Shown piece by piece: positions 5,544 through 18,084 of a stretch of DNA of 52,137 bases (position 1 is its first letter; each line of letters starts with the position of its first letter). The DNA is taken from assembly GCA_029860345.1 (NCBI GenBank), contig JAOUBJ010000021.1, positions 1-52,137 on the forward strand. Direction: 5' to 3'. The notes under the pieces are model-generated. The model made no database searches. It was given only the letters and a program-made list of their open reading frames with translations, and had not been told where the DNA came from. The stretch is from Candidatus Zixiibacteriota bacterium. Its GTDB lineage: Bacteria; Zixibacteria; MSB-5A5; GN15; FEB-12. Both the position numbers and the translations under genes were made by a program.

Positions 5544-5570
5544 GTCAGGACCACAATGGTTCTGACCTAC
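5544..5570. repeat. GTCAGGACC...GACCTAC hairpin repeat
   Basis: GTCAGGACC, a five-base loop (ACAAT) and GGTTCTGAC form a nine-base stem with one wobble, followed by CTAC. It is a single copy of the GTAGGTC/GACCTAC family that also occurs at 8724-8779, 13967-14189, 15841-15868, 17570-17597 and 51827-51898. Confidence 0.7.
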
Positions 5571-5734
5571 GAAGACTGACTTTTCAGTGAACAAAGAGTG
5601 GATTCCGACGTTTACTATCTCATGTGACCCGAATAGATTCGCTTGCGAATTCGCGGCGGGATCGGCTTATTGGGCGGATGTGAAATAGAGAGTAGTTTCG
5701 AGTATATGATACCTGGTCCTCTAAAGGAGAGTTT

Positions 5735-8434
5735 ATGCAGTTGAGGAGAATCTTCGAGATCACGCTGGTCGCAATTACGCTCCTGGCGTTCGTCGGCAAT
5801 GTCGATGCCAAGCGCCGCGTGCGAACTTTCGGTGACAAAGAGAAGTCATCGGAAACGACCAAGAATAAGAAAGACACCAAGAAGACAGACGAAAAACCGT
5901 TTGCCGAGATGATCAAAGACAAGGTGGCTATTGAGGGTCTGTTCACGTTCTATCATGACACGATCGACAACAGTTACCTGATGGCTGTCAAGCCGGAACA
6001 GTTTGGCCCCATCTATCTGCTGGGACTTACCCGTTCGGCATCGGAAGGCGCCTATTTTGACAATGGCACAATGTCGAGCACTTTTCCCTTTTTCTTCAAG
6101 CGCGTCGGCAAAAAAATCATGCTGATGGAAAAGAACCTTCGTTTTCGAGCCGATGAAAGTTCACCACTTAAACGAGCCCTGGACAGAGCCGTTTCCGACC
6201 ATCTGCGGTCATCGACCACGGTTGCTTCCAAACCGGATGACTCGACCGGCGCTATCTTAGTAAAACCGGCGGAGTTTTTCCTCAAAGACATCACCAATAT
6301 CGGGTATTACATGAATCGGGGACTTAAGACAGGTCTGAGTTTCGACAAAGGAAACAGCTATTTCGAGACAGTGAAGGGTTTCCCCGAGAATACCGAGATC
6401 GATGTGCGGTTGCACTTCAAGACCAGCAAACCGATCTCGGCGTCAACTATGCAGAATCCGTACAGCATGTTCCACGTCTATCATTATTCGCTGTCGTCAC
6501 TGCCGGAAACCGATTATATGCCTCGTCTGGCCGATGACCGCATCGGCCACTTCCAAACCATCTATCAGGACTACACCAACCTCGACGAAGAGACACCTTA
6601 CGTTCGCTATGTCGAGCGCTGGCACCTCAAGAAAAAAGACCCCACCGCCGCTCTCTCTGAGCCGGTGGAACCGATTGTATTTTGGGTAGAGAACACTGTT
6701 CCCGAAGAGTACCGACCGGCAGTGGTGGATGCGATTGAATTCTGGAATCCAGCCTTTGAAAAGATCGGTTTCAAGAACGCACTGGTGGCCAAACAGATGC
6801 CGGACACGGCCGACTGGGACCCCGCCGACACTCGCTATAATGTCGTTCGCTGGATGATCATTCCCGGTGGTTCCTATGCCGTCGGTCCCAGCCGCGCCAA
6901 TCCGTTTACCGGACAAATCTATGATGCCGACATCAGGTTCTCTTCGGACTGGGTGCGCTACATGTACAATCGGATGGAGTATTTCATCGATCCGGTTTCG
7001 TTTGATGGTTCCACACCCGGAGAGACCGGATTCGACGAGGTTGCACCGGAGCTTGAGGGTATTAACAACTATCGCATGTGCAACTACGGCGCCGAGGCGG
7101 CCAAAGAGGCGGCCTTTGCGTCTGCTTATCTCAGTGTAGCGACGGACGACCTGGCCGACAAGGATGAGGCGATCAAGAAGTACGTGCGCACCTACATCAC
7201 AGAGATTCTCGCCCATGAAGTAGGCCACACTCTGGGACTCAGGCACAATTTCAAAGCGTCCAGTGTCTACACCCTGGATCAGATCAACGATACGGAGTTT
7301 GCACGTGAGCACGGCACCATCTGTTCGATAATGGACTACGGTCCGCCCAACATCGCCGGGCCGGGTCGTGTACAGGGTGATTTCTACTCGACAATACCGG
7401 GCGCCTACGACGACTGGATGGTTGAATATGCTTATTCGGAATTCGATGCCGCCACGCCGAAGGAAGAACTTCCCATGCTGGCCGTGATAGCCGGTAAAGC
7501 CGCCAAACCGGAATTGGCCTATGGCACCGATGAAGATGCTTTTGGCTGGAGTACGCGTTCGGTGGACCCCTATTGTAACCTGCATGATGCCGGTAACGAC
7601 CCGCTTGGTTTCGCTCTGCACCGGATAAGTCTTACTCGTGAACTCTGGCACAACAGTATACCGACCTTTGAAAAACCCGGCGCGCGCTACCAAAAACTGT
7701 ACGGCGCCTTCCTGGCCGGATGGCGTTCCTACGGCGAGCTGGCCTTGATCGCACCCAAGTATGTGGGCGGCATAACGCGTAACAATCTCCACGTCGGCGA
7801 TGCACCCGGCAAGCCGCCGTTTGAAGTTGTCCCGGCTTCCGACCAGCGGCGAGCGGTGGCCGCGTTGCGCGATCATTTGTTTGCGGCCAATGTATTCGAT
7901 CTGCCCGATGGACTTTTGAACAAACTGCAGCCGGAGCGTTTCCCGGACTTTGCCTTCTCTGTGTATGGAAGATCGGTGGACTATCCTTTCCATCAGCGGG
8001 TGCTGGCGGCTCAGAACACAGCCCTGGCCAGATTGTACAGCTCGGCCGTCATCGGACGGCTGTTGAACAACGTCGACCGGTTCGGCGCCGACGAGGACAA
8101 GTACACCATGCATGACATGTTCACCGAGGTGCGTCGAGCTATCTGGAGTGAGGTCACGGGGCCTGCAAACGTCAACAGTTTCCGACGTCAGTTACAGCTT
8201 GCCCATCTCACCCGGATCATCGGTATATATTTGAGCCTGCCATCGCAGTATCCGTCGGATGCGCGCACCCTGGCCGCCAACGACCTGGATATTCTCAGTA
8301 GAGCGGCGCGAAGCGCGGCCGGTGCCGGCAACCTCAATGCTATGTCTCGGGCGCACTACAAAGAGGTGGTTCGCCAGATCGAAGCGGCCAGCAACGCCAG
8401 CCATTACTACGGTTCGAGTGTGATAAGGCGGTAG
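5735..8434 (+). CDS. Secreted zinc metalloprotease (DUF5117/DUF4953 family)
   Basis: An 899-residue exported protease. A signal peptide (ITLVAITLLAFVGNVDA) is followed by a Lys-rich linker. The catalytic motif is H494-E-V-G-H498-T-L-G-L-R-H504, a met-zincin HExxHxxGxxH. A met-turn-like C-S-I-M-D-Y follows about 47 residues later. The region before it ('NTVPEEYRPAVVDAIEFWNPAFEKIGF') and the long C-terminal helical part are typical of the family of large secreted zinc proteases annotated DUF5117 and DUF4953 in FCB bacteria. The start is well supported by AAAGGAG about seven bases before the ATG. A weak TTGGGC-N17-TAGTTT promoter lies at 5670-5698. It probably degrades peptides in the periplasm or outside the cell. 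The natural substrate cannot be read from the sequence. Confidence 0.92.
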   Translation: MQLRRIFEITLVAITLLAFVGNVDAKRRVRTFGDKEKSSETTKNKKDTKKTDEKPFAEMIKDKVAIEGLFTFYHDTIDNSYLMAVKPEQFGPIYLLGLTRSASEGAYFDNGTMSSTFPFFFKRVGKKIMLMEKNLRFRADESSPLKRALDRAVSDHLRSSTTVASKPDDSTGAILVKPAEFFLKDITNIGYYMNRGLKTGLSFDKGNSYFETVKGFPENTEIDVRLHFKTSKPISASTMQNPYSMFHVYHYSLSSLPETDYMPRLADDRIGHFQTIYQDYTNLDEETPYVRYVERWHLKKKDPTAALSEPVEPIVFWVENTVPEEYRPAVVDAIEFWNPAFEKIGFKNALVAKQMPDTADWDPADTRYNVVRWMIIPGGSYAVGPSRANPFTGQIYDADIRFSSDWVRYMYNRMEYFIDPVSFDGSTPGETGFDEVAPELEGINNYRMCNYGAEAAKEAAFASAYLSVATDDLADKDEAIKKYVRTYITEILAHEVGHTLGLRHNFKASSVYTLDQINDTEFAREHGTICSIMDYGPPNIAGPGRVQGDFYSTIPGAYDDWMVEYAYSEFDAATPKEELPMLAVIAGKAAKPELAYGTDEDAFGWSTRSVDPYCNLHDAGNDPLGFALHRISLTRELWHNSIPTFEKPGARYQKLYGAFLAGWRSYGELALIAPKYVGGITRNNLHVGDAPGKPPFEVVPASDQRRAVAALRDHLFAANVFDLPDGLLNKLQPERFPDFAFSVYGRSVDYPFHQRVLAAQNTALARLYSSAVIGRLLNNVDRFGADEDKYTMHDMFTEVRRAIWSEVTGPANVNSFRRQLQLAHLTRIIGIYLSLPSQYPSDARTLAANDLDILSRAARSAAGAGNLNAMSRAHYKEVVRQIEAASNASHYYGSSVIRR

Positions 8435-8503
8435 TGCTATGGTCGTGCATCAGTCAGTTCCGGCACGCTGCAGTTCGGTGGATTAGGCGCGCAAAGCGCG
8501 AGA

Positions 8504-8586
8504 GACACGGCTTGGCCGTGTCATGCCGGACCTGATCCGGCATCCAGTTCAGGTTTCGAAGACTGGATACTGGCCTTCGCCAGTAT
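8504..8586. repeat. Three consecutive perfect short hairpins
   Basis: GACACGGC-TTG-GCCGTGTC (8504-8522), ATGCCGGA-CCTGA-TCCGGCAT (8523-8543) and ATACTGGC-CTTC-GCCAGTAT (8567-8586) each have perfect eight-base arms. The third recurs in altered form near 14010-14040 (GGATACTGGTCTTCGCC). The second resembles the CCGGGTC-AGGCCCGG elements at 13921-13942 and 17705-17726. Confidence 0.75.
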
Positions 8587-8723
8587 GACAAAGGACGAAC
8601 AGTCTTGTGGTCTTGCAGGGCAGAACCGCTTCTGGTTCTGCCTTCTTTTATGGTGTTGCGCTGGGTCCTTTCCCGCTGAAGGCGGGATGAGACCCTGCGC
8701 GTTCTGTGGTCAGCATCCAGTAG

Positions 8724-8779
8724 GTCGGGACCTTTATGGTCCCGACATCAGCGTCAGGACCGCAAGGGTTCTGACCTAC
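8724..8779. repeat. Double GTAGGTC/GACCTAC hairpin element
   Basis: GTCGGGACC-TTTAT-GGTCCCGAC (8724-8746, perfect nine-base arms) is followed by GTCAGGACC-GCAAG-GGTTCTGAC (8753-8775, one wobble). The outer ends TAGGTC and GACCTAC are themselves complementary, so a nested cruciform is possible. Confidence 0.75.
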
Positions 8780-8803
8780 AATTGCAGCATCGTGATGTAG
8801 TTG

Positions 8804-9667
8804 TTACACGTCGCCGTTGGGGACGTTGTAGAAGGCTTTAATGTAGTTCCAGGCATCGACCGCTTTGTCGGCGTAGACAAATAGTTCGATATCCTCAGGC
8901 GCGATCGTACCCTGCCGCACCAGGAACTCGAAGTCGATCAACGAACGCCAGTATTCCTCGCCAAACAATACGATCGGCAACGGTGCCACCTTTTCTGTCT
9001 GCACCAAAGTCAGCGCTTCGAACAATTCATCCAGAGTGCCGTAGCCGCCGGGGAAAGCCACCAGCGCCTTGGCCCGCAGCATGAAATGCATCTTGCGAAT
9101 CGCAAAGTAGTGGAACTTAAAACATAGCTCCGGCGTGATGTAGGGATTCGGTTCCTGTTCTTCCGGTAAGGTGATGTTCATACCGACCGTCTTGGCGCCG
9201 ACATCGAAGGCGCCCCGGTTGGCCGCCTCCATGACACCGGGTCCGCCGCCGGTCACGATGACGTATTCATTCTCGTGGTTGGGCCGGTTTTCCTCAGACA
9301 CCAGGCGTCCGAACTCGCGCGCTTCATCATAGAATCGCGACTTGGCCAGAATATTCTTTGCGATGTGCAGTTTTCTTTTGAGAGTACCGTCGGAAGGCTT
9401 TCGGCGCAGTCTGGCTTCGGCTGTTTTGACCCCGGCTTTGGCATCTTTCGGCTCCACTATCCTGGTTCCGCCGAAGACTACCAAGGTGGATTTGATCTTC
9501 TGGTCCTGCAGCAGGATTTCCGGTTTCATCAACTCCATCTGTAGCCGAACCGGACGCGAATAATCTTCGGAGATGAAACCCTTATCGTAGTATGCTACCT
9601 TGTAGGCAGGTGAGCGTTCCAGGCGAGCTTGCAGTTTCTCTATATCAGGTGGTTTCTTTTTAGCCAT
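8804..9667 (-). CDS. LOG-family (TIGR00730-type) Rossmann-fold nucleotide hydrolase
   Basis: A 287-residue cytosolic protein of the lysine decarboxylase-like/LOG family. Characterised members are cytokinin-riboside or nucleotide 5'-monophosphate phosphoribohydrolases. Hallmarks are V-V-F-G-G-T-R at about 63-69, the glycine-rich T-G-G-G-P-G-V-M-E-A-A-N-R-G-A at about 139-153, R-K-M-H-F-M-L-R-A-K, and P-G-G-Y-G-T-L-D-E at 206-214, which carries the catalytic Glu. The extra N-terminal 55 residues and the basic segment around residues 80-110 fit the longer bacterial subgroup. It lies 60 bases after the phosphofructokinase gene on the same strand and could be co-transcribed with it. The true substrate in this organism is not known. 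Confidence 0.9.
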   Translation of the reverse strand: MAKKKPPDIEKLQARLERSPAYKVAYYDKGFISEDYSRPVRLQMELMKPEILLQDQKIKSTLVVFGGTRIVEPKDAKAGVKTAEARLRRKPSDGTLKRKLHIAKNILAKSRFYDEAREFGRLVSEENRPNHENEYVIVTGGGPGVMEAANRGAFDVGAKTVGMNITLPEEQEPNPYITPELCFKFHYFAIRKMHFMLRAKALVAFPGGYGTLDELFEALTLVQTEKVAPLPIVLFGEEYWRSLIDFEFLVRQGTIAPEDIELFVYADKAVDAWNYIKAFYNVPNGDV

Positions 9668-9727
9668 ACAATTGATTCATCCTGTGTGGACGAGCTACTG
9701 ATGCAATGTTGACGATCCGGCGGCGGT

Positions 9728-10870
9728 TCACGACGCGACCGGGTCCTTGAAATGTTCTTCCAGCGGTACCGACGATGACACGCCCAGGCAGATACCGAGT
9801 GATTGCGCCACTTTCAGAAGGGGATGGTCGGGCGCCACGGTGCGGACTTTTCCGGCCACATCTTCTATCGGCACCGATATCATCTGTTGGTTTTGCAGGC
9901 CGACCATCCGACCAACCTCGCCGCGAGCAACCAAGTGGACAGATTCCACACCATAGCGCGTAGCCAACAGTCGATCAAAAGCGCTGGGCGAACCACCCCG
10001 AAGCAGATGGCCCAGAATAGTAACCCGGCATTCGATATTGGTCAGACCTTCTACCTGGGCGGCGACACCGTGCGATACACCGCCGAGCCGCTTGGCATCC
10101 GGCGAGGTGGCAATGGTGCGCGCCACGGTCATCTCGCCGCCGACCGGTGAGGAACCTTCGCCGACCACCACGATCGAAAAATTCTTACCGCGTGCATTGC
10201 GTGTTCGCACGGCATCGCACACCGCCTCAATGTCATAAGGAAACTCCGGCAACAGGACAATGTCGCCGCCGCCGGCCAGGCCTGAGCAAAGCGCCAACCA
10301 GCCGGCATAACGCCCCATAACTTCGACGATCATGACCCGATGGTGGGATTGCGCCGTGGTGTGGATTTTGTCGATAGCATCGGTTGCGGTCACGCAGGCG
10401 GAATCGAATCCGAAGGTCACCTCGGTGCCAAAGAGATCATTGTCGATAGTCTTGGGGACACCGACTATAGGGAGCCCCAATTTCATCATACCGGCCGAGG
10501 CGGCCATAGTGCCATCGCCGCCGATAGCGATCAGGGCGTCAAGACCCAGTGATTCGAAATTGCGCACGGCCTGGCTGGATCGATCAAGGTAAATATACTC
10601 CTCCCCCTGGAGCACCGGAAAATTGAAGGGGTCGGCGCGGTTGGATGTCCCCAGAATAGTGCCCCCTTGGGCCAGGATTCCGGACGCATCACCCAGATCG
10701 ATCCGACGGTAGCGGTTCTCAATCAAGCCCTCGTAACCGTCGGAAAAGCCGATTACTTCGAGGTCGTAATCGTTGTGAGCCGTCTTGACAATAGCTCTGA
10801 TGACAGCATTCAGACCCGGGCAATCGCCTCCGCCGGTGAGAACGCCGATTCTTCTGATTTCCTTGTTCAT
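9728..10870 (-). CDS. pfkA: 6-phosphofructokinase, probably ATP-dependent
   Basis: A 380-residue glycolytic enzyme that phosphorylates fructose 6-phosphate. N-terminal G-V-L-T-G-G-G-D-C-P-G-L-N-A binds the nucleotide. A-I-G-G-D119-G120-T and V-P-K140-T-I-D143-N-D form the active site, and M-G-R-Y-A-G-W-L-A-L is the effector and substrate loop. At the position equivalent to E. coli Gly104 it has Gly120, the residue associated with ATP use. At the Gly124-equivalent position it has Lys140, as in the mixed group III that includes PPi enzymes. ATP dependence is therefore likely but not certain. It is divergent from glgP, suggesting a carbohydrate-use locus, with the LOG gene downstream. No clear promoter was found in the shared 345-base spacer. 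Confidence 0.93.
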   Translation of the reverse strand: MNKEIRRIGVLTGGGDCPGLNAVIRAIVKTAHNDYDLEVIGFSDGYEGLIENRYRRIDLGDASGILAQGGTILGTSNRADPFNFPVLQGEEYIYLDRSSQAVRNFESLGLDALIAIGGDGTMAASAGMMKLGLPIVGVPKTIDNDLFGTEVTFGFDSACVTATDAIDKIHTTAQSHHRVMIVEVMGRYAGWLALCSGLAGGGDIVLLPEFPYDIEAVCDAVRTRNARGKNFSIVVVGEGSSPVGGEMTVARTIATSPDAKRLGGVSHGVAAQVEGLTNIECRVTILGHLLRGGSPSAFDRLLATRYGVESVHLVARGEVGRMVGLQNQQMISVPIEDVAGKVRTVAPDHPLLKVAQSLGICLGVSSSVPLEEHFKDPVAS

Positions 10871-11215
10871 CGTGATAATTTACCAATTCGGTTCACGTTT
10901 GGAAACTAATAACTTCCCCCCATTTTGTCCCTTGGGGAGGTATATCTGAGTTTTCGGCATATCGATGCCCTGCTTTACCAATGACAGGCCCCGACCGTGC
11001 GCGGCCTGTTGAAACAGACCTGGTTGGATGGTGGTGTCGGGCGACCCCGCCCGACACCTCATCTTCCAGGTCTCCGGCCGTCAGGCGAGTCGCCTGACAG
11101 CACCTGCCCAGCCTCACCCGTACCTGCCGGCCATAAAATTCTTGTTGTTTTGGACGATATATGTTAGTAGCAAACGGGGTTATAGCGCCAAGCAATACGT
11201 CACAAAAGGAATTCG
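10871..11215. other. Divergent spacer between pfkA and glgP
   Basis: The 345 bases hold the second copy of the composite hairpin pair (11034-11098), a C6 tract near 10917-10922, and the glgP ribosome binding site AAAGGAA just before 11216. Short open frames on the minus strand here have no start-site or family support. No confident -35/-10 pair was seen for either gene. Confidence 0.5.
11034..11098 (+). repeat. Composite intergenic hairpin pair, copy 2
   Basis: GTGTCGGGCG-ACCC-CGCCCGACAC (11034-11057) has perfect ten-base arms, and GTCAGGCGA-G-TCGCCTGAC (11080-11098) has perfect nine-base arms. The order and orientation are the same as at 4774-4839. Confidence 0.85.
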
Positions 11216-13783
11216 ATGCGAGTAAAACAGTTCCTGGTCCTGCCGCGACTACCAAAACGAATCCATGCACTTCAGGAACTGGCTCAGAATCTCTGGTATT
11301 CCTGGAACTGGGACCTGGTCAAGCTGTTTATCCGACTTGACCCGGAAATGTGGGAGGCATGCTACCAAAACCCGGTCAAGATGCTGTCACGATTACCTCA
11401 GGAAAAGCTTGAAAAGGCGGCCAAGGATGATGGCTTCGTAGCCAGTCTGGATCGTGTCCACCAGAAATATCGCGAGTATCTCGATCGCAAAAAGTGGTTC
11501 GAAATCAACTATCCCGATAACAACGGCGGACGGCTGGCCTATTTTTCACTCGAATACGGCTTGGACACCGGGCTGCCGGTTTATTCCGGCGGATTGGGCG
11601 TGCTTTCCGGTGATACCCTGAAGTCTTCCTCGGACCTGGGATTACCGGTCGTGGCCGTGGGTCTGCTTTACCGCTACGGCTACTTCCGTCAATGGCTCTC
11701 CAGCGACGGCTGGCAGCAGGAACGGTATGAAGAAAACGACTGGTACCACATGCCGGTACAACTGGTCAAGGGACCGGATGAACAGCCGCTCCGAGTCGGC
11801 GTTGAAATCGATGGTACACCGGTGCAGATTCAAATATGGAAAGTCATGGTCGGTGTAACGCCGCTGTATCTCTTGGACACGAACATCGGAGAAAACCCCA
11901 CCAAGTGTCGCGAAATCACATCGGTACTTTACGGCGGCGACAAAGACACCCGTATGAGGCAGGAGATAGTTCTCGGTATCGGTGGCGTGCGGGCGCTACG
12001 GGCCATGGGGATACAGGCGGACGCCTATCATCTCAACGAAGGGCATTCCTGGTTTCTGACCCTGGAGCGCATCCGCATCCTGATGCAGGAGGAGCACCTC
12101 ACATTTGCTGAAGCCTCGCAGTATGTCTGGTCGAGCACAGTCTTCACGACCCACACGCCGGTCCCGGCCGGCAACGAGAGATTCGACCCGGTGCTGGTAC
12201 ACAGGTATCTGGGCAAGTTCGTTTCCGAGTTGGGGCTGGGCTGGAAAGATTTCCTGGCTTTGGGGCGCGTTTTCCCCAACGATGAAGCCGAACCGTTCTG
12301 CATGACGGTAGCCGCCCTCAAACTGGCTGCCTTTGCCAACGGTGTGTCCCAACTGCACGGTAGTGTTTCGCGCCACATGTGGCACAACATCTGGCCGGAC
12401 CTGCCCACCGAGGAGATACCTATCGGCGCCATTACCAACGGCGTGCATCCGGGGTCATGGATATCGCACGATCAAAACGAATTATACGAAAGTTATTTTG
12501 GCCCCGACTACGTTGAGAAGCCCGGACAATTGGATACCTGGAAACTGGTGCACCGCATCCCCGACGCTGAACTGTGGCGCATTCATAATCGCCGACGGGA
12601 ACGTCTGGTGTTTTTTGCGCGCAAGCGGCTCAAACAGCAGTTGATGCGCCGTGGCGCCTCGCAATTGGTTATCCAGCGCGCCGATCAATTGCTCGACCCG
12701 CAGATATTGACCATCGGTTTCGCCCGGCGCTTCTCGACCTATAAACGCGGTAACCTGATTTTCTCCGACCCTGAGCGTCTGGCCAAGATCGTTAACTCAG
12801 AAGACTGTCCGGTGCAGATTCTCGTGGCCGGCAAAGCGCATCCTTTGGACACGCCCGGCAAAGAAATCATCAAACAGATGGTCGAGTATACTTCCGAGGA
12901 ACGCTTCAGGCATCGCGTTATCTTCCTTGAGGACTACGACATTAACGTCGCCCGTTACCTTGTCCAGGGTGTCGATGTCTGGCTGAACAACCCCCGGCGT
13001 CCTTTGGAAGCTTCCGGCACCTCCGGCATGAAAGCAGCGTTGAACGGCGCCCTCAATCTGTCGATCCTCGACGGCTGGTGGGTCGAAGGATACGATGACA
13101 GCACCGGTTTCAAAATCGGCAACGGCGAGGAGTACGATAATATTGAAACGCAGGATCATTTCGACGCTGAGATGCTGTACAACACGCTGGAGCGCGAAGT
13201 GATTCCTATGTACTATGAGCGCAACGAAATCGGTCTCCCCACCCAGTGGCTGGCCAAGATGAAAGCCACCATCCAGATGGCTGGTGAACGCTTTTCCACC
13301 CAGCGGATGCTCGAAGATTACACGCAGCAGTTTTATCTGCCCGCTATCGAATCGGGACAACGGATGCGTGAGGATCAGTACCGACTCACCCGCGAAACCA
13401 CCGCCTGGATCAGCCGAGTCGGCAGCAACTGGAACAAGATCGGTATACGCAATGTCGATGTGCCCGAACTGGAATCGACCCTCTTTGTCGGACAGAAATT
13501 TCCGATCACCATCGAGGTCCTCCTGGGTGACATCAGTCCTGATGATGTCGAGGTGCAAATAATCTCCGGTCGACTGAATTCACACGAAAAGATTCAAGAC
13601 TTCCAGCCGGCCGCAGCCGTGCCGACCGATGCCGGTAGTCAGCCAGCCGAGGACGGCGTCTATGCTTTCACCGGCGAGGTGACCTGTTCAGAGTCGGGCC
13701 GATTTGGAATCACGGCGCGCATCATCCCCAAGAATCAAAACCTTCCCCACCCGTTCAAGCCCAAGCTAATAAGCTGGTGGTAG
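11216..13783 (+). CDS. glgP: Alpha-glucan (glycogen/maltodextrin) phosphorylase
   Basis: An 855-residue GT35 phosphorylase that releases glucose 1-phosphate from alpha-1,4-glucans. The N-terminal 110 residues ('LPKRIHALQELAQNLWYSWN') form the DUF3417 domain typical of the long bacterial/archaeal alpha-glucan phosphorylases. The catalytic core shows Y-F-S-L-E-Y-G, Y-S-G-G-L-G-V-L-S-G-D, H-L-N-E-G-H-S, T-T-H-T-P-V-P-A-G and R-F-S-T-Y-K-R. The PLP site is G-T-S-G-M-K606-A-A-L-N-G-A-L-N, with Lys606 expected to carry pyridoxal phosphate. An AAAGGAA ribosome binding site precedes the ATG. The head-to-head arrangement with pfkA links glycogen breakdown to glycolysis. The C-terminal 100 residues are an extra beta-rich region common in this subfamily. 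Confidence 0.96.
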   Translation: MRVKQFLVLPRLPKRIHALQELAQNLWYSWNWDLVKLFIRLDPEMWEACYQNPVKMLSRLPQEKLEKAAKDDGFVASLDRVHQKYREYLDRKKWFEINYPDNNGGRLAYFSLEYGLDTGLPVYSGGLGVLSGDTLKSSSDLGLPVVAVGLLYRYGYFRQWLSSDGWQQERYEENDWYHMPVQLVKGPDEQPLRVGVEIDGTPVQIQIWKVMVGVTPLYLLDTNIGENPTKCREITSVLYGGDKDTRMRQEIVLGIGGVRALRAMGIQADAYHLNEGHSWFLTLERIRILMQEEHLTFAEASQYVWSSTVFTTHTPVPAGNERFDPVLVHRYLGKFVSELGLGWKDFLALGRVFPNDEAEPFCMTVAALKLAAFANGVSQLHGSVSRHMWHNIWPDLPTEEIPIGAITNGVHPGSWISHDQNELYESYFGPDYVEKPGQLDTWKLVHRIPDAELWRIHNRRRERLVFFARKRLKQQLMRRGASQLVIQRADQLLDPQILTIGFARRFSTYKRGNLIFSDPERLAKIVNSEDCPVQILVAGKAHPLDTPGKEIIKQMVEYTSEERFRHRVIFLEDYDINVARYLVQGVDVWLNNPRRPLEASGTSGMKAALNGALNLSILDGWWVEGYDDSTGFKIGNGEEYDNIETQDHFDAEMLYNTLEREVIPMYYERNEIGLPTQWLAKMKATIQMAGERFSTQRMLEDYTQQFYLPAIESGQRMREDQYRLTRETTAWISRVGSNWNKIGIRNVDVPELESTLFVGQKFPITIEVLLGDISPDDVEVQIISGRLNSHEKIQDFQPAAAVPTDAGSQPAEDGVYAFTGEVTCSESGRFGITARIIPKNQNLPHPFKPKLISWW

Positions 13784-14209
13784 CGATAAATGGCCCATAA
13801 ATGGGTTCTTCGCGCTACGCGCGCTACAAGTGTCACCCTGAGCGCAGTCGAGGGGTGAATCTATCGTGCAAAAACCAGCCCCAAACAAGGTTTGAGACGG
13901 CCACCCGAGGAGCGGACTGGATTCCGGGTCAAGGCCCGGAATGACTGAGGGGCGGCCACCCGGTTTCGGACCAGGGGGTCCGACCTACTGTTACTGCCGC
14001 AATAAAAGACCGGATACTGGTCTTCGCCGTTATGACAGACATGGGTCAATCGGTGTTTGTGGAGCACGAGGCAGACCGAAGAGAAACCCGCGAAGCGCGA
14101 GTTGTCGGAACCCGCATGTGGCGGTCCTTCGGACCAGGGGTTCCGACCTACTGTTACTTCGGGACAGGTGTCCTGACCTACTGTTACTGAACTCACTGTA
14201 CAAGCCAAC
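13784..14209. repeat. Intergenic repeat cluster
   Basis: This 426-base gene-free stretch is a mosaic of the window's repeat families. It contains CCCATAAATGGG plus TTCTTCGCGCTACGCGCG at 13795-13825, CCCTGAGCGCAGTCGAGGG at about 13836-13854, the palindrome ATTCCGGGTC-AA-GGCCCGGAAT at 13921-13942, and CGGACC-AGGG-GGTCCG at 13967-13982. GACCTACTGTTACT appears three times, at about 13982, 14145 and 14175. A GGATACTGGTCTTCGCC element lies near 14012. Unrelated modules sit side by side, as in a preferred insertion or recombination zone. Confidence 0.7.
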
Positions 14210-15010
14210 TCATTCGGTATTCCATCGACTCTTCTGTTTGAGAGATAACTCCTCACCGAATTCCTTAGCCACCAGGTGGGCAAGCCCCTGTATTGCTTCA
14301 ACGATCTCTTTCTTGAATAAGTCACCGCCGCGGGACCTGAATTCACCTACAGTGTAACCCTTCCTATAAAAGTCATCTGATGAAATGGCCCTCCGCATCA
14401 GGAGCTTGTTCCCTTGAATGTCTATAACGGAGACATCAGCAGTTATCACAGCACTGGGGCTCACTCCGCCGCCGTAGGCCGCAAGTCCATATAGGAAGTT
14501 TAGTTCCAAAACCCAGTCGGCACCGAGCTTATCGTTGAGAACGGTATAGTCATTGATTTTCGTTTTTCTACCGACTTTCTTTCTTGGGTATTTGTCAACT
14601 CCCAAATTGTCTACATCCATAGGGCTGACAGTTTCAAAGCCCATAACAAAGGTCTTGGTGAAATCCTCGTCGAAAAGTTTTTTTATCGGAAGATCCGAGA
14701 CGGCCATTCTAAGCATGTCCGGGTCGCCGCCTAACGACGATCTCAAGTTTGCATCGATGACACCACCAATGATCAGTGTCCCCAGAATGCCGGTGTTAGC
14801 ATATCGACCCTCCTTCAGACTCTTAATCATACCGCTGTGGTCAATTACCTGCAACTCTTCGTCCTTCATTGATGTGACAATGGCCAGTTTTTTGATCTGT
14901 TGTGTATCCTCCGGTTTCAGCAGGTTGAACTGTTTGGCCGGTACGCCGCATCCTGTGATCATGTAAGTTGCAAAGAGCCCCAGGATCGTTATGGTCAAAT
15001 TGTATTTCAT
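14210..15010 (-). CDS. Putative lipoprotein of unknown function
   Basis: A 266-residue exported protein. The hydrophobic leader ends in a lipobox-like I-T-G-C21, so it is predicted to be lipid-anchored. Residues 35-60 ('IKKLAIVTSMKDEELQVID') and 165-215 ('LGADWVLELNFLYGLAAYGG...VITADVSVIDIQGNKLL') resemble beta-alpha segments of lipoproteins that carry an envelope-related CsgG/GNA1162-like or DUF4136-like fold, but I could not assign a family. It follows the 15053-15700 lipoprotein by 42 bases on the same strand, so both probably form one transcript from the promoter at 15723-15750. The last residues run into repeat sequence near 14210. Confidence 0.7.
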   Translation of the reverse strand: MKYNLTITILGLFATYMITGCGVPAKQFNLLKPEDTQQIKKLAIVTSMKDEELQVIDHSGMIKSLKEGRYANTGILGTLIIGGVIDANLRSSLGGDPDMLRMAVSDLPIKKLFDEDFTKTFVMGFETVSPMDVDNLGVDKYPRKKVGRKTKINDYTVLNDKLGADWVLELNFLYGLAAYGGGVSPSAVITADVSVIDIQGNKLLMRRAISSDDFYRKGYTVGEFRSRGGDLFKKEIVEAIQGLAHLVAKEFGEELSLKQKSRWNTE

Positions 15011-15052
15011 CTTCTTACTCTCTGCCTACTTGTGCACCGAAGTCGGCAGATG

Positions 15053-15700
15053 TCATTTGTTTTGCTCAACAAACTTACCCACAGCCACAGCCAGTTGGTC
15101 ATCTTTAAGAACGGATGCGATCACATCGTAGAGCGCTCTATTAATGATCTGCTCGTTTTGAACCGTTACATCCATCCCGTCGAGTATCGATTCAACATGA
15201 CTTTTCTTGACATCATACCATAAGTTCACATCATGAATCCTATCGATCAAAACAACATCGAATTCTATGTCTGCTTCCGAATGCTGAGGAACCAAACCTG
15301 GCGTAAATTCCTGCACCCAGAAGACGTTTATTCTGCCCTTGAATACCAAATCGGCTTCGGCTTCGTCGAAAACCACGTTGAATCCCGACTCGGCGAATGC
15401 CCCACGGAAGGCCAGCGCGGATAGCTCGACGAGACTATCGTCAATAATGATGGGCGACTTTTTGTCGGCAATGCCGGTTTTCGCCTCACCGATTACATTA
15501 TGGGCAACGCCGGTTCTCAGATCAGTGAATCTCTCAACGAAAACACTTACCTGCGCAGCATTGGGGATTGATGAACTGGGCGGGGTCCGCAGATAGTAAT
15601 CCAGTCTGACTTTGCTGTATTGAGAACCACAGCCGGCCAACAAGTGAAAGGTGCAGATAACAACGACGTAGAAGACCGGTGATTTCACTTTTCTTTTCAT
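15053..15700 (-). CDS. YajG-like putative lipoprotein
   Basis: A 215-residue lipoprotein. The leader 'SPVFYVVVICTFHLLAGC' ends in a textbook L-L-A-G-C lipobox. The mature part has the layout of YajG-like or related outer-membrane lipoproteins: 'AAQVSVFVERFTDLR' as a first strand, 'LVELSALAFRGAFAESGFNVVFDEAEADLVFKGRI' as helix-strand, then 'EADIEFDVVLIDRIHDVNLWYD'. I chose the ATG at 15700 because GAGAGG lies eleven bases upstream. An in-frame GTG four codons earlier is possible. A TTGAAC-N16-TATCTT promoter lies just upstream. Together with the next gene it forms a two-lipoprotein unit, maybe subunits of one envelope complex (inference). Confidence 0.75.
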   Translation of the reverse strand: MKRKVKSPVFYVVVICTFHLLAGCGSQYSKVRLDYYLRTPPSSSIPNAAQVSVFVERFTDLRTGVAHNVIGEAKTGIADKKSPIIIDDSLVELSALAFRGAFAESGFNVVFDEAEADLVFKGRINVFWVQEFTPGLVPQHSEADIEFDVVLIDRIHDVNLWYDVKKSHVESILDGMDVTVQNEQIINRALYDVIASVLKDDQLAVAVGKFVEQNK

Positions 15701-15722
15701 CCTCTGTAACACCTCTCAATGA

Positions 15723-15945: not shown

Positions 15946-15974
15946 TTGACACCCGCGTGAATCCCCAGCTTATT
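15946..15974 (+). promoter_or_regulatory. Promoter upstream of the small protein and radical SAM gene
   Basis: TTGACA at 15946-15951 and CTTATT at 15969-15974 have 17 bases between them (or TTATTG with 18). The predicted start near 15981 gives a leader of about 85 bases. Confidence 0.5.
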
Positions 15975-16015
15975 GTTGATGAATTAGGGATAACCCCGTA
16001 TTTGATTGAGACTCA

Positions 16016-16059
16016 ACCTCCGGGGTCCGTTTCCCGGTAGGCAAAGCCTGAGAGGAGGT
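16016..16059 (+). promoter_or_regulatory. Possible SD-sequestering leader structure
   Basis: ACCTCC at 16016-16021 is the exact complement of the Shine-Dalgarno GGAGGT at 16054-16059. Between them, CCGGG at 16020-16024 can pair with CCCGG at 16033-16037, and GGC-AAA-GCC lies at 16040-16048. Upstream, CCCCG (16004-16008) can pair with CGGGG (16021-16025), which competes with the first pairing. This is the arrangement expected of a translational switch. No known riboswitch class was recognised, so this is inference. Confidence 0.35.
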
Positions 16060-16065
16060 GTTGGA

Positions 16066-16368
16066 GTGGCGCAAAGGATGAAAGTCCAGATGAGGTTTCA
16101 CCCTGAACACATCATGTACTTGGTCATCGTTGACAAGATGCTGAAGAAGTGGGCCAACGTGATGAAGGTCAGGCCCACCGACAAGTTCTTTGACATGGTG
16201 CATGGGCATGTTGTGGATCATGCGGTCAGAGGTGTCGAGCCCCCGAAGCAGATTGCGGCGGCGATCCTGAATATCGCCGATGACATGATGTCTGGGCGCG
16301 ATGTGGTGCTCAGGGCCGGTGACTATATCAGCCTGATGGACTACGCGAGGAAGACGAGAAAGCTCTAA
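16066..16368 (+). CDS. Small His/Met-rich protein next to a radical SAM enzyme
   Basis: A 100-residue protein without signal peptide or membrane segment. I chose the GTG at 16066 because AGGAGG lies seven bases upstream. The ATG four codons later is the alternative. The sequence is mostly helical and unusually rich in Met and His (H-P-E-H-I-M-Y, M-V-H-G-H-V-V-D-H), with a basic C-terminus Y-A-R-K-T-R-K-L and no Cys at all. I do not recognise the family. It precedes the radical SAM/SPASM gene by 92 bases on the same strand and shares its promoter, so it may be the substrate, a binding partner or an unrelated cotranscribed protein. Absence of Cys argues against a thioether (sactipeptide-type) substrate. 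Confidence 0.7.
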   Translation: MAQRMKVQMRFHPEHIMYLVIVDKMLKKWANVMKVRPTDKFFDMVHGHVVDHAVRGVEPPKQIAAAILNIADDMMSGRDVVLRAGDYISLMDYARKTRKL

Positions 16369-16460
16369 CAATGTTCATCAGCCCGGGAGGAAGAGACAAA
16401 TCCTTTCTCCCGGAATCTTACCCATAGTGATTTCGGTTTATGTGAGGAGTTTTTGTCGTA

Positions 16461-17495
16461 ATGACGTTTGAAGGTTTTCCGCTCGTTATCGGTTTGGAGT
16501 TGACGCTTGAGTGCAACCTGAAATGCAAACACTGTGCGTCGTCAGCCGGGCAACCTCGCCCTAAAGAGCTAAAACTGGATGAGATACTGAATATCTGCGA
16601 CGACCTCCCGGATCTCCTTGTTCAAGAGGTTGATTTCACCGGAGGCGAGCCGTTGCTACGCACCGACTGGCCGATTATCGCCGCGCGTCTCGGCGAGTTG
16701 GGTATATCGGTCCGGATGGTCACCAATGGCGTACTCTTGGAGAAGAATATCCCGCCTCTTTTGGATTCCGGGATTGCCACCGTTGGTGTCAGCCTGGATG
16801 GTTTGGAATCCACTCACGATCTTATCCGCGAACGGCCGGGACTATTCAAACGCCTTATCTCGGGCATAGAAGCGTCACTGGCTGCAGGCATCCCGACGGC
16901 CGTACTCACGGCTGTTAATGATCTGAATGTTTCGGAACTGCCGACGCTGCTGGCCTTCCTCCAACGCCTGGGCGTTCGGCATTGGCAGGTCCAGCCCACG
17001 TTTTCGCTAGGTCGTGCTCACGAGGGAAGAGTGAGTCTATCGGAGTCCTCGTTCCTGGAAATGGCCCGGTTCATAAAACGCAACTCCAACGGGGGCAAAA
17101 ATGATACTGTCAGCCTGATGCCCGCGGACGGCGTTGGTTACTATACCGATCTCGACACTCGGGATCGCCCATGGGCCGGCTGTTCTGCCGGCAGGGCGTC
17201 GTGTGGCATTACGAGCGACGGTAAGGTCAAAGGATGCCTTTCGCTTCCGGACGACATGATCGAGGGCGATCTGCGAACCCGGGACTTGTGGAGTATTTGG
17301 TTTGACGATACCGCCTTCAGTTACAATCGGTGTTTTTCGCCGAAGGACCTTGGCAAGAACTGCTCAGGCTGCGAGTTTGGCGAGCAGTGTATGGGAGGTT
17401 GCCTGGTCATGTCGCACTCAGCCACCCAGCAGTTTCACAATGATCCATACTGTTTTCACAGTATAGCCGCCCGTCACAGGTCCCTTGCCATCTGA
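16461..17495 (+). CDS. Radical SAM/SPASM domain protein
   Basis: A 344-residue iron-sulfur enzyme. The radical SAM cluster motif is C18-N-L-K-C22-K-H-C25. F-T-G-G-E-P-L and V-T-N-G-V complete the SAM site, and V-G-V-S-L-D-G the barrel. The C-terminal SPASM domain has C241, C248 and C259 in the G-x-C loop, then C301-x2-C304-x5-C310-x3-C314 and C331, enough for two auxiliary [4Fe-4S] clusters as in PqqE- and AlbA-like peptide or protein modifying enzymes. GAGGAG about ten bases upstream supports the ATG. Length is normal for compact SPASM proteins. The target is unknown. The neighbouring 100-residue protein is the obvious candidate. Heme d1-type and mycofactocin-type roles cannot be excluded, but no partner genes for those are in the window. 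Confidence 0.9.
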   Translation: MTFEGFPLVIGLELTLECNLKCKHCASSAGQPRPKELKLDEILNICDDLPDLLVQEVDFTGGEPLLRTDWPIIAARLGELGISVRMVTNGVLLEKNIPPLLDSGIATVGVSLDGLESTHDLIRERPGLFKRLISGIEASLAAGIPTAVLTAVNDLNVSELPTLLAFLQRLGVRHWQVQPTFSLGRAHEGRVSLSESSFLEMARFIKRNSNGGKNDTVSLMPADGVGYYTDLDTRDRPWAGCSAGRASCGITSDGKVKGCLSLPDDMIEGDLRTRDLWSIWFDDTAFSYNRCFSPKDLGKNCSGCEFGEQCMGGCLVMSHSATQQFHNDPYCFHSIAARHRSLAI

Positions 17496-17704
17496 CAAAT
17501 AACCATCCAAACCTACTATAGCTGTCCCTGAAACCCGGAGAGGAAGATTGTCGAAACCTCGCTTCGCGAACCCTTCGGGTCAGGGGTTCCGACCTACGAA
17601 GAGAGGCCTTCGCGGACCCTCGGCTGCGCTCGGGGTGACATGAATTGGCGGGTTCACGCCACGGCGCGCAGGCGAAGACGGACCCGCCCTACAGGAAAAG
17701 ATGG

Positions 17705-17760
17705 ATTCCGGGTCTAGGCCCGGAATGACACCCATAAATGGGCTCTTCGCGCTTCGCGCG
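17705..17760. repeat. CCGGGTC palindrome plus CCCATAAATGGG module
   Basis: ATTCCGGGTC-TA-GGCCCGGAAT is followed after four bases by CCCATAAATGGG and then TCTTCGCGCTTCGCGCG. The same two modules occur at 13795-13825 and 13921-13942 in the opposite order, and the second also at 28594-28660. Confidence 0.75.
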
Positions 17761-17883: not shown

Positions 17884-18084
17884 TTGACCGGAGTTAAAGT
17901 ACGGGACGATGAGTCCTTCGAGAGAGCACTTCGCCGCTTTAACAAATTCTGCGAAAAAGCAGGGATTCTTACAGATATCAAGAAGCATCAGCATTTTGAG
18001 AAGCCGTCCGAGGCGCGCAAGCGCAAGATGGCGGCTGCCAAAAGGAAATCCAGGCGCTCTAAATTCAAAGATGATCGCTACTAA
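17884..18084 (+). CDS. rpsU: 30S ribosomal protein bS21
   Basis: A 66-residue basic protein of the small ribosomal subunit that aids mRNA base-pairing during initiation. It has the family signature V-R-D-D-E-S-F-E-R-A-L-R-R-F-N-K-F-C-E-K-A-G-I, then H-F-E-K-P-S-E-A-R-K-R-K and a Lys/Arg-rich tail. The start is a TTG, chosen because AAGGAGG ends nine bases upstream and the translated N-terminus (M-T-G-V-K-V) matches the family. The stop overlaps the start of yqeY by one base (TAATG), so the two are translationally coupled. A rare start codon on a ribosomal protein gene is unusual. Confidence 0.95.
   Translation: MTGVKVRDDESFERALRRFNKFCEKAGILTDIKKHQHFEKPSEARKRKMAAAKRKSRRSKFKDDRY

Follow-up and report, generated by a model that had tools for sequence, protein, structure and literature searches.

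SPASM enzymes make cofactors such as PQQ and mycofactocin, together with unusual peptide crosslinks. Mycofactocin clusters place the gene of an RRE protein of ~100 aa ahead of the SPASM enzyme gene. Another SPASM enzyme, QhpD, acts on QhpC, a subunit of quinohemoprotein amine dehydrogenase of ~100 aa that works as a whole protein. In some RiPP operons, hairpins between the precursor and enzyme genes raise the ratio of precursor to enzyme. The mycofactocin precursor combines a diverse upstream part with an invariant C-terminus and is sporadically distributed (PMC3023750).

The locus described here lies in a 52,137-nucleotide contig of a Candidatus Zixiibacteriota bacterium, analysed at its full length and referred to as the window. 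The original prediction placed a 100-residue, cysteine-free protein ahead of a SPASM enzyme on one strand, and this arrangement is confirmed by the open reading frames, the Shine-Dalgarno sequence and the cysteine motifs (Table 1), and by a relative of the pair in a second bacterium (locus L002). Like mycofactocin (MftA/MftB/MftC), the locus brings a SPASM enzyme and a small partner together in one cluster and is sporadically distributed, and the small protein resembles MftA in its divergent N-terminus and invariant C-terminus (PMC3023750). The small protein has 100 aa and is also conserved in its middle, whereas MftA is 34-78 aa long and conserved in its last 23 residues only; mycofactocin also needs a separate RRE protein, MftB, unlike the pair, and the enzyme scores 98.5 bits against the mycofactocin maturase family, for which the cut-off is 265. 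The QhpD/QhpC system likewise matches a SPASM enzyme with a protein of ~100 aa, but QhpC is crosslinked through cysteines, which the small protein lacks, and dehydrogenase subunits are not found near the pair.

Table 1. Positions of the features of the gene pair in the window and of the corresponding hairpin in L002
Feature	Position	Strand	Description
Shine-Dalgarno sequence of small-protein gene	16053..16059	+	AGGAGGT; direct sequence reading
Small-protein gene	16066..16368	+	GTG start at 16066, stop at 16368; 100 aa, Cys-free
Intergenic hairpin	16383..16413	+	-20.5 kcal/mol; no T-run; just past the small-protein stop
Radical SAM/SPASM enzyme gene	16461..17495	+	344 aa; complete radical SAM and SPASM Cys sets
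Equivalent hairpin in L002	5314-5350		between small-protein and enzyme genes

A gene pair shared by two distant bacteria

Stretches of the small protein were scanned across 84,980 species genomes under a required exact 8-residue match, which remote relatives would escape, and one other carrier was recovered, the Candidatus Aegiribacteria GLR63 MAG. Its locus, L002, holds the same two genes in the same order as the window. The small proteins are identical at 51/96 residues (53%) with no gaps and the same start position, and the enzymes at 226/340 (66%); when the two loci were compared in six frames, these two proteins alone rose above chance. The pair is thus conserved in two distantly related uncultured bacteria, and the two genes were not found apart. 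Co-occurrence in other genomes, which the original prediction had put forward as a check, was borne out in the single further genome recovered, and the small protein was not seen to be widespread without the enzyme in the genomes searched. This conservation lends support to the idea that an unclassified small protein encoded next to a SPASM enzyme is its partner or substrate.

Within sampled genome sets that overlap and are non-random, profile and sequence searches found the small protein in the carrier only, both among 132 phylum members of the window genome (two weak matches rejected) and among 386 of its relatives (one weak match rejected). The same result was obtained for the Aegiribacteria genome, whose 42 phylum members and 385 relatives yielded the carrier alone, and no copy was detected in viral contigs, plasmids or phages. 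Orthologues of the enzyme were seen only in the two carriers across the same sets of relatives. Weak profile matches to the small protein were discarded in G064, where the match lies inside a secreted-type repeat protein, in G310, where it sits beside an acetyltransferase and an aminotransferase and without a SPASM enzyme, and in G130, where it covers 48 residues at 35% within a longer frame.

In four genomes of the same genus the order rpsU-yqeY-cvpA-mutS2 is conserved, and the pair was not found in the sequence readable upstream of rpsU, which amounts to ~8.5 kb (L049), 2.7 kb (L050), 1.2 kb (L051) and 1.5 kb (L053). This pattern indicates that the two genes are gained and lost as a unit, which is consistent with horizontal transfer.

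The small protein is under selection and falls outside known families

The L002 small-protein gene carries GGAGGTG at the place equivalent to the Shine-Dalgarno sequence of the window. Differences between the two genes amount to 42/24/60 at codon positions 1/2/3, different codons are used at 28 of 50 residues identical between the proteins, and synonymous sites look saturated. The excess at the third codon position, together with identical residues encoded by different codons, indicates selection at the protein level; with the gap-free L002 relative that starts at the same position, it marks the small ORF as a true gene.

Identity between the two small proteins climbs from 1/10 at residues 1-10 to 9/10 at residues 81-90. 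The segment RAGDYISLMDY is identical in both and residues 81-93 are nearly invariant, while conservation spans residues 41-93 and therefore includes the middle of the protein as well as the C-terminus. As regards a leader/core organisation with a cleavage site, a double-Gly motif is not visible; the N-terminus is divergent and the C-terminus conserved. Cysteine is absent from the protein of both genomes, which excludes a thioether to a cysteine of its own. The description of the protein as His/Met-rich holds for the window, where these residues make up 14/100, and is not supported as a functional feature, given 9/100 in the L002 relative and a single His there versus five in the window; by this comparison, His-richness is not conserved.

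Searches of Pfam, NCBIfam, PHROGs and PDB sequences gave chance-level matches only, in keeping with the earlier proposal that the protein matches no familiar RiPP precursor class. Profile comparison, with two sequences on each side, revealed no similarity to PqqD. Structure models built from two sequences are helical throughout at low confidence (mean pLDDT 58 and 46), and Foldseek searches with these models returned nothing at E <= 0.001, a result that is uninformative because the models are poor.

The enzyme resembles peptide maturases

The CxxxCxxC radical SAM motif of the enzyme corresponds to C18/C22/C25. Its seven-cysteine SPASM motif, C241-x12-G-x4-C259, C301-x2-C304-x5-C310-x3-C314 and C331, follows the pattern Cx9-15Gx4C ... 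Cx2Cx5Cx3C ... C, and all motif cysteines are shared with the L002 enzyme. PF04055 (Radical_SAM) matches from residue 14 with an E value of 5.3e-25, and PF13186 (SPASM) is above cut-off, as is PF13353 (Fer4_12) on the same residues as the radical SAM domain. Besides the radical SAM and SPASM domains, no further Pfam domain was detected in the enzyme, including an RRE, and PqqD was not detected in the window genome.

Among NCBIfam families, the best match is TIGR04103 (nif11-class maturase 3), which covers nearly the whole length (E 2.6e-60) at 204 bits, where the cut-off requires 725; Pfam and NCBIfam searches with the small protein gave no match to Nif11. The second-best match, TIGR03913 (GDL-motif), reaches 183 bits, below a cut-off of 591.75, and matches to NirJ/AhbD are weaker than those to peptide maturases. 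The L002 enzyme likewise falls far below every equivalog cut-off, and its nearest families are again peptide maturases. By motifs and profile scores, the enzyme belongs to the SPASM superfamily and is not a member of any named equivalog. Enzymes of this kind usually modify peptides, and the one here is a putative peptide or protein maturase.

Paralogues of the GDL type occur in the window genome and its relatives. These next-best matches to the enzyme are 32-38% identical and, unlike the pair, come from loci in which tandem SPASM genes accompany ABC transporters or B12-radical SAM enzymes; these loci lack the small protein.

Leader and intergenic spacer

The two genes of the window are separated by 92 nt. 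Upstream, the genes at 15053-15712 and 14210-15010 lie on the opposite (-) strand, and downstream rpsU starts only at 17884, so that the pair forms its own unit. A promoter and a switch-like leader had been proposed ahead of the small-protein gene, and neither was supported. TTGACA is present at 15946, and a -10 box is missing at the accepted spacing of 16-18 nt; the closest sequence picked out by eye is TATTGT, 19 nt away. Rfam searches of the leader gave nothing credible at gathering or relaxed thresholds, folding was at or near the shuffled mean in both genomes (z of -0.84 and -0.59), and the leaders of the window and L002 do not resemble each other. These results do not support a riboswitch-type leader.

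The intergenic hairpin is better supported than the leader feature. None of 300 shuffles was as stable as the local hairpin in the window, and 11/300 were in L002; folding of the whole spacer gave z of only -1.5 (window) and -1.3 (L002), so the hairpin signal is modest on that test.

Proposed function and alternatives

The small protein is probably the substrate or partner of the enzyme, and the comparison of two genomes suggests, with moderate confidence, that it is the substrate. We consider it marginally probable that modification by the enzyme takes place in the invariant C-terminal segment. The pair would then act as a two-gene maturation unit: the small protein would be produced ahead of the enzyme and, by virtue of the intergenic hairpin, in excess, and the SPASM enzyme encoded downstream would modify it. 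The modification site would most likely fall within VxRAGDYISLMDYxR, with Tyr87, Tyr93 and the neighbouring Asp, Ser and Met as candidates. Because the small protein contains no Cys, the bond formed would be something other than a Cys thioether. Recognition would probably proceed through the small protein itself, as searches detected neither an RRE in the enzyme nor a PqqD encoded by the window genome. Once modified, the protein may function intact or give rise to a conserved small product.

Evidence for such a unit includes the synteny in L002 with both proteins conserved and nothing further in common at the loci, the exclusive co-occurrence of the two genes, their joint absence ahead of rpsU in the four same-genus genomes as far as the sequence could be read, the full SPASM cysteine set, best family matches to peptide maturases, the divergent N-terminus joined to an invariant C-terminus, and a hairpin in both spacers. 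Against it stand a count of two independent examples, a length of 100 aa with predicted helical structure (low confidence) unlike that of short unstructured precursors, the modest whole-spacer hairpin signal, the lack of a visible protease, exporter or RRE at the window locus, and the genes downstream of the pair in L002. There, the stretch directly after the pair (6572-8274) encodes PqqD and a B12-binding radical SAM enzyme. A PqqD of this kind was found in none of the other Aegiribacteria phylum members (42 searched), and may have been acquired there in one cassette with the pair; the system in L002 may be larger than two genes, while the window species manages without PqqD. As in RiPP precursors, a small ORF is conserved beside a modifying-type enzyme in the same order in two distant bacteria. 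An RRE, in the enzyme or separate, is a common, not universal, companion of such precursors and was not detected in the pair, although PqqD lies near it in L002.

These same observations bear on other roles for the small protein. It could serve as an accessory partner, a recognition or chaperone protein that resembles an RRE in role and presents a different substrate to the enzyme. The mycofactocin RRE protein, of similar size, precedes its SPASM enzyme in just this way, and a substitute would be useful to an enzyme without a detected RRE in a genome without PqqD. We nevertheless regard this as rather unlikely, since the small protein has neither PqqD profile similarity nor predicted beta strands (at low confidence), a separate true PqqD is encoded next door in L002, and six-frame comparison revealed no third conserved short peptide near the pair common to both genomes. 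Conservation across residues 41-93, rather than at the end alone, and a window locus without protease or exporter would also suit a protein with a function of its own (an enzyme subunit or a metal or cofactor protein, for example) that requires one radical modification and is not cut, like QhpC. This overlaps with the maturation unit in chemistry and differs in the fate of the protein; we judge it unlikely, as no partner subunit neighbours the pair in either genome and no fold match was found, though the model is poor.

The two genes might instead be neighbours by co-transfer only, with an unrelated small protein, for example a regulator, and an enzyme whose substrate is a small molecule, for instance a tetrapyrrole. 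The weaker NirJ/AhbD matches and the variability of the junction upstream of rpsU within the genus would accommodate this, but exclusive co-occurrence and kept order in distant bacteria that share nothing else at the locus, together with best matches to peptide maturases rather than heme enzymes, make it very improbable.

Returning to the maturation unit, a more specific and doubtful proposal makes the small protein the first member of a new class of SPASM substrates that work without an RRE: folded, Cys-free, of ~100 aa, and bearing an invariant C-terminal DY-rich segment that would receive a radical carbon-carbon or similar modification to give a conserved cofactor or an active protein. On the strength of sequence comparison, the two-gene pair counts as a solid lead and not as an established system, and its RiPP status is putative. 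It would offer a tractable case for new radical chemistry and for substrate recognition without an RRE, and as two genes only, readily expressed, it suits use as a test system.

Genomic surroundings

Elsewhere in the window genome (contig C7), locus L057 encodes tandem SPASM enzymes, a B12-radical-SAM-like protein and an ABC transporter at 5549-11243, and loci of this type are present in many members of the phylum. In the Aegiribacteria genome, positions 925-2719 of locus L040 encode a second PqqD followed by two radical SAM enzymes. Within the window, the - strand at 14210-15712 carries two lipoprotein-like genes of unassigned family with a GC content of 47%, versus 54% for the window. Short repeats at 13794-14188 and 17574-17760 form families of 28-31 nt that are 71-97% alike, including TGGATTCCGGGTC..GGCCCGGAATGAC. 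These blocks lie on either side of a segment that contains the pair and both lipoprotein genes, and may be the mark of an inserted or mosaic region.
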